From Bryum argenteum (Eukaryota > Streptophyta > Bryopsida > Bryales > Bryaceae), in assembly GCA_037043015.1 (NCBI GenBank), contig CM073327.1:3392727-3456726 (forward strand): a DNA stretch of 64,000 nucleotides. Reading direction: 5' to 3'. Positions 20,028 through 34,676 of this stretch are shown here, piece by piece (positions within the stretch are counted from its first letter, which is position 1; each line of letters begins with the position of its first letter). Under the pieces are notes generated by a model that was not told where the DNA came from, did no database searches, and saw only the letters and a list, made by a program, of their open reading frames with translations. The translations under genes and the position numbers were made by a program.

Positions 20028-23000
20028 CTAAGTGATCACTGTGGGCTCTGAGCGGCCTGTGAACTCTTCAATCTTCGATAGCTTCAACGTTACCTCCACC
20101 TGAACACACATCCCAACAACACAATTCCAAGAGCTCAAAAATCTGCATAAGGATAGGATACCTGGCACGATTTCAAGCCCCAGCGAAATGCTTGATGTAA
20201 TTCTGTAATAATGCACAGCTCCAGATTGGTAAAAGACTGCAAGAGCTATGGGAGCTTACAAGAGGAGCCAGAGCCTCGGCGGAAGGATTGAATGTCTTGG
20301 TGGAATCTGCTTCGTGCTGCTCAATGTAAAGGCGTATTGTGGCTCCAACAGATCCCGTTCCCGACAGACGGAAAACCTGTATAAACAATAATGTTCATGA
20401 CCAAATTTGTAATTGTGAAAACAAGATATGGGGTACTCGAAGTGTAACCTACCAGGCGAGAGCCATTCTTGATGAGGTAACGGATACCCTGGTGGCTGGA
20501 CACAAAGTGGTCAACTGGATCCTTGTACTCAAACTCATCGGCTTCTAACACTTCCGCAACAGCAGGTCTGTTCTCCTTGATCAAGCTGGCAAAAGGAGCA
20601 ACAACACTTCGCAACATCAAAACTGTTCCGAAACTCTCTTCTCCACACACGGAGCACATGCCAGCATCCATGAGATTACCGAAAAACTTCCATCCTGTAG
20701 GGACCTGTCAATTAGATCCACACCAAATCCTCGTAAGTGACATGCTCTTCACAATAGTATCTTCTTGTAGGTCTCCCTGTGACAATACAATGGTCTGTAC
20801 TAAACGAGCTGGCAGTCTGAACATGTTTCATGATGAGATGAACTAGGAATGAAGATGCGAGTTGAGGCTGTGATTGAAGAAAAGCACCGACCTCGAAAAA
20901 CTTGAGGTTCAGCTTCTGAGCGACAACATCCAGAGCAGCTGAAGTAGGCATACTCCTGCGAAAACCACGAGTCGATAATCTCATTCATATTATCAGCCTG
21001 CTTCATTGTAAACACACAACACAATTCCATTACTAGCTTTGGAGTAAGAACAATAAGCGCAGAACCAACCTGGCTACTCCTTTGAGGCCACCACTGAAGT
21101 AAGGGATGGCTGCAACAGCATTGGCAGCGATGATGGCTACTGAATCTGATGGGGTCACAAAGAACCTGCACTCCAACCACCAGTTCACAATCAATAGTGG
21201 CTCCATAACTTATTTAGACTTCCAACTTATCTTTCACTTTCGAGCCATTAAGAGCGGAGGAGATTCTGATCTCTTCTGATTAGGCTATCTTGTCGATTAG
21301 TGGTTATGTGAACATGGGCATCGCAAGAATGACAAAGAAAGGTACCTCTTGCCCAGAATCATGTTCCTGTCGGCATCACCATCAGCGGCAGCACCAAACT
21401 CAGGAACTTCATCGGCCGGCTTCTTGCCCAATCCCATCACTTGCACGAGCTCCTTGGCGTAGGTCAAGTTGGGGTCAGGGTGGCCTCCACCGAAGTCCTC
21501 CTGCAGAAAAAAAAGAGCTCCATCACTCTCAAATCTGAGCATATTTCGTTACTTTCAGAAACTCTAAAAGCTCTATGAAACCCTAAGATCCGAATAACTG
21601 AAGAAAGAGATGCTTACACTCGGAACGCAGTTCAGCAACGAGCTCTCCTGAGCTCCCAACTCCTCCAGAAAGATCCTCTTAGCGTACACACCAGCAACTC
21701 CATGAAGAGCATCATAGCTGACAAGAATTCGATCAGATCAGAAGAAAAAGAAGGAACTGACCACAGATATATTAACCTTACAAAATGGTTTAATGATGTG
21801 TACCAGAAGGTGAACTTGGGGTTTGTGAGCAAGTCTTTGATAGCCGTGAAGTCAAAGATAGTCCTGCACAAACAACGAAACACCGAATTACTAATACTGA
21901 TTGGGTGAGGGATCAATTCAAAGCAGATTTTGATGTAATGCTCACTTCATCAGCTTCACGTAATCCTCAGTTGAATCGAAAACCTCCACGTCGAAGGTGC
22001 CATCGGGTCCTTCGAAAGTAGTCACACCAATCTTGGTAACATCGACCTGATCAAGAGAAAATGTAAGAATCATCACGAACTCTGTCGATTTAAACGATTC
22101 TATCAATTTATGAGTGAACGTACATCTGGGATGCCGTCCGCAGTGTAGTAAGCGGAGATAGTCTTGGTGTTGTCATAAATCTTGTTGGTCAAGCTCTCGG
22201 GAGCTGGACCTCCATTCTCACAGTTGTACTTGATGCCGAAATCCTAAACACAGCAATAAGCATTAGTCCCAGTTCAAGCAGCAATCAACTGACGGTTTTA
22301 GATCAAGTGGTAATTTACCTCATCAGGACCACCGGGGTTGTGGCTGGCTGTCAAAATGAAAGCTCCATACGCCTTCTCACCCTGCTCACATTCCAACACT
22401 CATTCAGGCCACCCCGAAATTATTCACAGCACATTTACAAAGCATTAGAAAAGTGACATTTGAACTTACATAGCTATTAACCCGATCTCGGATGATTGCA
22501 GAAACTGCAGGAGTAGACAGAAGGGTATCCTGGCCGACCCAGACCCTCTTCACACCGTTCGCTGCTGCAATCTTGATGATAATCTGCAACATAAAAACAA
22601 AGCAGCTGATTACTACACTAAATAGGTAGATTACTGATAGATCGTCGAAATTGCTAGCCGGAAACAATATTTTCCATCGAAGTCCTCCTCCAGAAAAGAA
22701 AAAGCTTCCTCCGATAAGAATCTCTCAGATCTGTGCGTATTTCACGAAAAACTCTCGAAACCCTAAAACCAACAAATGCAAGGAGAAAACAAGACAAATG
22801 CAATGTCTGTCTTACACTCGGGACGCAGTTCAACACTGAGCTCTACTGAGCTCCCAACTCCTCAAGAAGATCCTCGTGGCGTAGAAACCAGTAACTCCAT
22901 GAAGAGCATCATAGTTGATGACCGAAAAAATTGATCAGGAATTGACAACTAGAAAATGTATGGTAAAACTTTCGAAATGGCTCAATAATGTACCCGGAGG

Positions 23001-23045
23001 TGAACATGGGGTTTGTGAACAAGTTTGGAACATCTTGTACCGACC
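20028..23045 (-). pseudogene. Phosphoglucomutase copy B, chimeric and truncated
   Basis: Exons 18, 17 (about 20372-20256) and 16 are present with diverged sequence ([19 protein letters not shown]). Exons 14 and 15 are missing. From exactly 20623, exon 13 upward through exon 4 (to about 22585) is near-identical to copies C and D, including [11 protein letters not shown]. Exons 1-3 are absent: at about 22674 the sequence switches to a second, older PGM fragment running exon 10', 9', 8' up to about 23045. It therefore has no start and lacks the N-terminal domain plus part of domain 4. A product could come only from cryptic transcription. Confidence 0.88.
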
Positions 23046-34000: not shown

Positions 34001-34676
34001 TACAAAGCATTAGAAAAGTGACATTTGAACTTACATAGCTATTAACCCGATCTCGGATGATTGCAGAAACTGCAGGAGTAGACAGAAGGGTATCCTGGCC
34101 GACCCAGACCCTCTTCACACCGTTCGCTGCTGCAATCTTGATGATAATCTGCAACATAAAAACAAAGCAGCTGATTACTACACTAAATAGGTAGGTTATT
34201 GTTAGATCGTCGAAATTGCTAGCCGGAAACAATATTTTCAAGATCATTGATTCCAATACATTACACGGCAGAACGAACCGGTGACTAACCTGAATAGCTT
34301 CCGTCGACCAGTACCGGCCATCGCCAGATACAACAATGTTGGAGCCTGCAAAAGAAATTCTCATTCAGCAATGGATCGCCACTGCACCAAACCCCAGAAT
34401 CTATAGCAAAAGAATGTGCGCAATCACCTTTCACTTTCTCAGAAGGAAGCGCATCGAAAGTGGACTGCACAAAGTTGGCGAGATAGTGATCCTGCTTGAA
34501 CACTGTCACCTGCCGATCCCGAACAATAACCAATTGAGTAAACACTCTACTACCACTTTCGTAAAAGAAAGCAAGAGGGGGGGTGGGGTACGGACCTTCT
34601 TGCGCAGACCGGAAGTACCAGGCTTCTGGCCATCGATCGGCTTAGTGTCTTGCTTCACAACCTTGAATGACACCAT
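31062..34676 (-). CDS. PGM: Cytosolic phosphoglucomutase (complete, 18 exons)
   Basis: Interconverts glucose-1-phosphate and glucose-6-phosphate in the cytosol, linking sucrose, cell-wall and glycolytic metabolism (known). All 18 exons were joined with GT/AG splice sites and no frame break: 34676-34596, 34509-34428, 34345-34290, 34148-34035, 33946-33884, 33808-33689, 33611-33511, 33428-33369, 33282-33183, 33064-32910, 32729-32634, 32519-32456, 32268-32187, 32105-31933, 31855-31779, 31619-31487, 31410-31294, 31133-31062. The product is 581 residues; plant cytosolic PGMs have about 583. Key residues: phosphoserine Ser124 in LTASHNPGG, Mg-binding Asp299/301/303 in DGDADR, and phosphate-binding RLSGTGS near 522. 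It starts [20 protein letters not shown] with no transit peptide, hence cytosolic. Exons 4-18 are shared with the tandem units; exons 1-3 are unique. It is the only whole PGM here. Confidence 0.95.
32187..34195. repeat. Tandem segmental repeat, unit 3 (partial)
   Basis: Exons 13 to 4 of the complete PGM gene match units 1 and 2 almost base for base up to about 34195. Then single differences appear (GGTTATTGTTAG against GATTACTGATAG), and homology to the tandem units ends near 34240, where units 1 and 2 switch to a different PGM fragment. Confidence 0.85.

Follow-up and report, generated by a model that had tools for sequence, protein, structure and literature searches.

A tandem array of LEA-like genes and headless phosphoglucomutase copies beside a complete phosphoglucomutase gene in a plant genome

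The genome assembly of Bryum argenteum contains a tandem array in which a 5.8-kb block, harboring a whole LEA-like gene and a headless copy of a phosphoglucomutase (PGM) gene, is repeated beside the sole complete PGM of the locus. The reading that we consider probable is an array of the type known from CUP1/RSC30 in yeast, with the LEA-like gene lying just 3′ of PGM and convergent with it, with abnormal joints of two generations and with growth by exchange within PGM. The evidence comes from the repeat and its joints, from a mosaic pattern in the complete PGM and from older copies of the same architecture in the vicinity. The coordinates of all features are collected in Table 1.

Table 1. Features of the array and of related copies in the window (the whole stretch of 64,000 nucleotides that was analyzed, C7:3392727-3456726)
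Feature	Position	Strand	Size or structure	Basis
Repeat unit 1, in the phase of the sequence-only reading	20623..26404		5782 bp	self-comparison, alignment
Repeat unit 2, in the same phase	26405..32186		5782 bp	self-comparison, alignment
Partial third unit, formed by exons 13-4 of the intact PGM and continuous with 34240 onward in the natural order	32187..34239		2053 bp	
Complete PGM	31062..34676	-	18 exons, 581 aa + stop, GT-AG in 17/17 introns	
PGM piece 1	20623..22674	-	exons 4-13 only	self-comparison, exon mapping
Headless PGM copy	25280..28455	-	exons 4-18, without exons 1-3	
New joint: PGM intron 3 to exon 10 of older PGM remnant	22674..22675			
New joint, second copy	28455..28456			
Abnormal left end, where an older PGM remnant (end of intron 15; exons 16-18) meets the end of PGM exon 13	20622..20623			
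Older PGM remnant X, bounded by the old joint to the LEA 5′ flank	22675..23045	-	parts of exons 10-8	
Older PGM remnant L	19679..20593	-	exons 18-16 and downstream	
Older PGM remnant B	16290..17764	-	exons 18-15 and 10-8	
Inverted unit D	53649..56768	-	LEA-like gene and PGM remnant (parts of exons 8-10, exon 18)	
LEA-like copy A, leftmost	14386..15178	+	broken frame, no PGM joint on left	
LEA-like gene B	18307..19031	+	open frame	
LEA-like gene C1 (unit 1)	23510..24231	+	open frame, 2 exons	
LEA-like gene C2 (unit 2)	29292..30012	+	frameshifted as assembled	

The repeat and the differences between its units

Self-comparison of the window aligned 20623-28455 with 26405-34239 at 99.82% identity (7839 columns, 4 mismatches and 8 gap openings) and 20623-22674 with 32187-34239 at 99.8% identity (3 mismatches and 1 gap), giving a period of 5782 bp and about 2.36 copies. 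A sequence-only reading of this DNA had described two near-identical 5782-bp units with a partial third and A-runs of 8, 7 and 9 in PGM intron 9, and all of these are present. A search of the whole assembly (258.8 Mb, 25 contigs) with the opening 1000 bases of unit 2 and with the 2053-bp PGM piece gave three full-length matches of 100% (rounded) per query, all within the array, and the other matches of both queries were partial with 67-90% identity. Every repeat carries a full-length LEA-like gene, whose frame is broken in unit 2 as assembled, together with PGM exons 4-18 or 4-13.

The units had also been said to start and end in the middle of PGM. The coordinates match, but the edge reflects a choice of phase at the natural exon 13/intron 13 boundary of PGM: the intact gene crosses the 26404/26405-type boundary at 32186/32187, exactly at the 3′ end of exon 13, and a true unit end at 20623/26405 was ruled out on this ground. 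A better phase runs from the older PGM remnant with parts of exons 10-8 through the LEA-like gene, PGM exons 18-14 and PGM exons 13-4 to the new joint. Nor is the array composed of PGM halves around a LEA gene only, since the PGM at its right end is complete.

Over 5782 bp, units 1 and 2 differ in 9 columns that correspond to 8 events, namely seven indels (one of 2 bp) and a single substitution. This 1:7 ratio of substitutions to indels contrasts with 176:12, 233:19 and 265:19 for unit 1 against B, D and the copy on contig C2, respectively (Fisher, 1.9e-7, 3.3e-7 and 1.5e-7), and because of this contrast most of the differences are probably consensus errors. True mutation alone was thought an unlikely source, with seven indels to one substitution. 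Conversion from an older paralogue was also considered; at all six polarisable sites the odd state is private to one unit (five in unit 1, one in unit 2). Seven of the eight events fall within 22675-24580 (p 0.002). As just one substitution separates the units, either they are very young or one of the two does not exist. A rate of 7e-9 per site and year would put their age at some ten thousand years as an order of magnitude, with broad limits.

The second of these options, in which only one segment corresponding to 22675-26404 (PGM piece, LEA-like gene, PGM) exists and was placed twice during assembly, would leave the older joints and the first new joint real. Two noisy consensus copies of one sequence would be expected to show such an excess of indels, and the private odd states point in the same direction; however, a true and very young duplication that was badly polished would look alike, and assemblers more often collapse such arrays than expand them. 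The clustering of the events within 22675-24580 is predicted by neither reading. Taken together, we regard an assembly duplicate as rather unlikely.

Joints of two generations and a mosaic PGM

The 26-base sequence across the new joint occurs exactly twice in the genome, both times in the array, while a control pattern gave no occurrence. Inspection by eye gives a shared stretch of about 2 bp for the new joint and of about 1 bp for the left end (20622|20623). Because the shared sequence at the new joint is so short, end-joining or template switching is more likely than homologous exchange as the first step of the new array. The left end needs an extra event in any version of the history, either an insertion that took the place of about 256 bp or a third copy with a later deletion; relative to remnant B, about 256 bp between remnants L and X are missing here (17155-17410 in B). 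The third PGM piece differs from pieces 1 and 2 in the length of an A-run and in three substitutions within 8 bp. These substitutions lie 37-44 bp from the new joint, are common to pieces 1 and 2 and are absent from the natural piece; three random substitutions within 8 bp of 2052 would be expected with a chance of about 2e-5. On the basis of this shared cluster, pieces 1 and 2 probably descend from one joining event.

By sequence criteria, the right-end gene qualifies as a functional phosphoglucomutase. Its frame is intact, it contains the TASHNPGG loop and it shows purifying selection against a complete paralogue on contig C4 in which 18/18 exons were matched (dS 1.26, dN 0.05, dN/dS 0.04 over 569 codons). 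A tblastn search (E up to 1e-3) detected PGM exons 1-3 a single time in the window. No LEA-like match was found in the 9.5 kb surrounding the C4 paralogue. An intronless PGM-like gene was also seen on contig C9 at about 7887.6-7889.3 kb, as a single tblastn stretch over residues 4-581 with 62% identity and an open frame of 648 aa.

Comparison of the intact PGM with the older remnants gave different distances in its middle and its 3′ part. In introns 8-9, it differs from all four remnants at 70-76 of 190-192 sites (JC 0.51-0.57), whereas the remnants are separated from one another by distances of 0.04-0.13. Introns 16-17 can be compared for B and L only, as D and the contig-C2 copy have lost them; here the intact gene differs from L at 25/237 sites and from B at 22/218, which is no greater than the difference of 28/218 between L and B. 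The shift between the two regions was significant for B (Fisher, 1.7e-11) and for the C remnant (9e-13), against 0.16 for the control pair B-C. Synonymous distances to the intact gene pointed the same way; with two comparisons of fewer than 20 codons omitted (exons 8-10 of remnant X, exons 14-18 of the contig-C2 remnant), they were 0.35-0.49 in exons 8-10 (B, D and the contig-C2 copy) and 0.14-0.19 in exons 14-18 (B, L and D, with 24 codons for D). This synonymous signal is weaker than that of the introns: in exons 8-10 the intact gene is 0.35 from the contig-C2 copy, yet B or D is 0.26 from the same copy. A generally faster rate in the middle of PGM was rejected as the cause, as the distance to the C4 paralogue is about the same in the two regions (dS 1.30 and 1.12). 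In a tree of the 3′ region, the intact PGM groups with the C remnant with a local support of 0.96; in the exon 8-10 region it forms a long branch whose placement among the remnants has no resolution. We interpret the intact PGM as a mosaic in which the 3′ part would derive from the family of truncated copies and the middle would not; the switch would lie in the interval bounded by the tested regions, from PGM position 1851 to 3281. This mosaic supports past exchange within PGM.

An older joint, connecting PGM exon 8 with the LEA 5′ flank, is common to the LEA units B, C1 and D and to the contig-C2 copy in an upstream alignment, with about 4-5 bp of shared sequence by eye. Copy A keeps the LEA side of this joint, beyond which its DNA is unrelated. 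Such a pattern would be expected if an earlier tandem duplication had a single break in PGM exon 8, copy A then being the leftmost copy with its original flank. Units of a LEA-like gene and a headless PGM would accordingly have arisen here in an earlier generation too, as the old joint is present in B, C1, D and the contig-C2 copy and not in A.

A one-step rearrangement by replication or break repair, with template switching as the source of the entire array and no unequal exchange afterwards, would agree with the little shared sequence at both the new joint and the left end and with the clustered substitutions near the new joint. Yet the two copies of the segment 22675-26404 have the same joint and the same three substitutions, which are most simply explained as a copy of a copy, and the mosaic PGM indicates that exchange within PGM had happened before. 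We therefore consider a one-step origin unlikely.

The LEA-like gene family

The sequence-only reading assigned a whole LEA_2 gene to each unit. A LEA-like gene is found in each, but the family name holds less well, as the match to Pfam LEA_2 (PF03168) reached 18.9 bits against a cut-off of 25.4 (E 0.0022). The unit-2 copy is, moreover, frameshifted as assembled. The fold predicted for exon 2 is of low confidence (pLDDT 53). Among 897 listed structures, none matched the exon-2 model at E 0.001 or better; 1xo8 (At1g01470, Arabidopsis) was third with E 0.008, beside other beta-sandwiches. A PDB sequence search with the LEA-like protein returned one chance-level match only (E 0.43). Copy B encodes 205 aa in two exons, the contig-C2 copy has an open frame, and the gene in unit D is open with a TTG start where the other copies have ATG. 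The family comprises 66 exon-wise matches in the genome, with further groups on contigs C8, C10 and C6.

Selection was estimated for the six pairs of B, C1, D and the contig-C2 copy (Nei-Gojobori, small numbers); the two contig-C10 copies, in which no splice donor was found, and the broken frames of A and the unit-2 copy were left out. In exon 2, dN/dS was 0.33-0.51 in five of the six pairs and 0.94 in the other, and in exon 1 it was 0.79-1.37 in all six. In these older copies, exon 2 thus appears mildly constrained, and exon 1 appears to be without clear constraint. That the repeats act as an adaptive amplifier, being kept because more LEA-like protein is favorable, for example under drying, would fit the mild constraint on exon 2 and the large size of the family, but is improbable in view of the broken copy A, the frameshifted unit-2 copy and the absence of clear constraint on exon 1.

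Exon 1 (23510-23704) showed a conservation of 0.83-0.85 against 0.89-0.92 for the adjoining intron and was lower in three of three comparisons. In copy A, a short coding segment is repeated in tandem (14637-15163) and breaks the frame. About 7 kb beyond the array, an ORF at 41310-41708 gave a match to LEA_5, a different LEA family, below threshold (39.1 against 40 bits).

Growth of the array and known counterparts

The CUP1-type reading that we favor can be laid out in four steps. An old end-joining event in PGM exon 8 would have created units of a LEA-like gene and a headless PGM; one of these units would then have exchanged PGM sequence with a complete PGM from a more diverged lineage, giving the present mosaic gene; a later break repair may have set a second 2052-bp PGM piece to the left of the unit-1 LEA-like gene; and unequal exchange between the two 2052-bp pieces would have added one extra 5782-bp repeat. 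An alternative order, with a CUP1-like tandem duplication, a third copy and a subsequent deletion at the left end, fits about equally well. The claim that unequal exchange within PGM drives the array is borne out in part: the mosaic PGM and the older generation speak for it, and the array fits, but the left part of the PGM pieces carries no marker that would reveal a crossover in the present duplication.

As PGM exons 1-3 lie outside the repeat, exchange adds LEA-like genes and never a whole PGM, just as the sequence-only reading had proposed. Its description of an efficient amplifier is not supported, as there are only two recent copies and the assembled frame of one is broken. Exchange deleting the last repeat would join exons 1-13 to the remnant exons 16-18, without exons 14 and 15. 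These two exons comprise 173 + 77 = 250 bases, which is not a multiple of three, and the locus would therefore lose its sole complete PGM, a loss for which the C4 paralogue might compensate. In a more far-reaching and tentative reading, which we hold as possible rather than probable, PGM would be a lasting recombination platform that founded LEA arrays twice, the gene itself would be a chimera with its 3′ end swapped with its own truncated copies, and LEA copy number would have a lower limit imposed by selection on PGM, since PGM exons 14-18 would disappear together with the last repeat. If true, the array would act as a ratchet in which LEA copy number can expand but not reach zero.

Plant tandem duplications formed by break repair, mostly short and with short-homology joints, were reportedly described by Vaughn and Bennetzen in 2014. 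The array is likewise tandem with short-homology joints, and differs in its 5.8-kb length and in the homologous exchange that seems to have followed. In yeast CUP1, YHR054C matches the terminal 1 kb of RSC30 exactly, the complete RSC30 lies at one end and homology at the founding joints does not exceed 3 bp (PMC4232551). The corresponding features, namely a whole small gene with a truncated neighbor in each repeat, the complete neighbor at one end and a founding joint with little homology, are all found here. Unlike CUP1, the present array is in a plant and combines a LEA-like gene with PGM, its neighbor gene is mosaic, two generations of joints are readable and there are only two recent copies. 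Human RCCX is a tandem module with the truncated neighbor TNXA in which unequal crossover gives chimeric TNXA/TNXB genes (PMC8362596). It shares with the present locus the truncated neighbor in a tandem module and a chimeric gene from exchange between truncated and complete neighbors; it differs in its larger module, its several genes and its documented population variation.

In the full-text library searched, no paper combined all four of phosphoglucomutase, late embryogenesis abundant, tandem duplication and unequal crossing. The array type is known, and the locus is a new example whose history is unusually readable. Within about 43 kb (13.7-56.8 kb) it contains founding joints, an older generation and a mosaic neighbor, providing a readable plant case of how a tandem array starts and grows. 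Its one-sided growth suggests that collapse of an array could be prevented by a housekeeping gene with its 3′ end within the repeat. For annotation, such loci may yield spurious PGM genes, and recent repeat copies may carry consensus errors.

Two minor observations concern the DNA downstream of the LEA-like gene. A short telomere-like run of TTTAGGG units, seen by eye, is present at 24583-24602 and at the same place in unit 2, inside a small insertion absent from copy B, and is possibly a trace of break repair. A dispersed repeat with at least 20 matches of 86-87% on other contigs occupies about 67 bp at 24704-24770.
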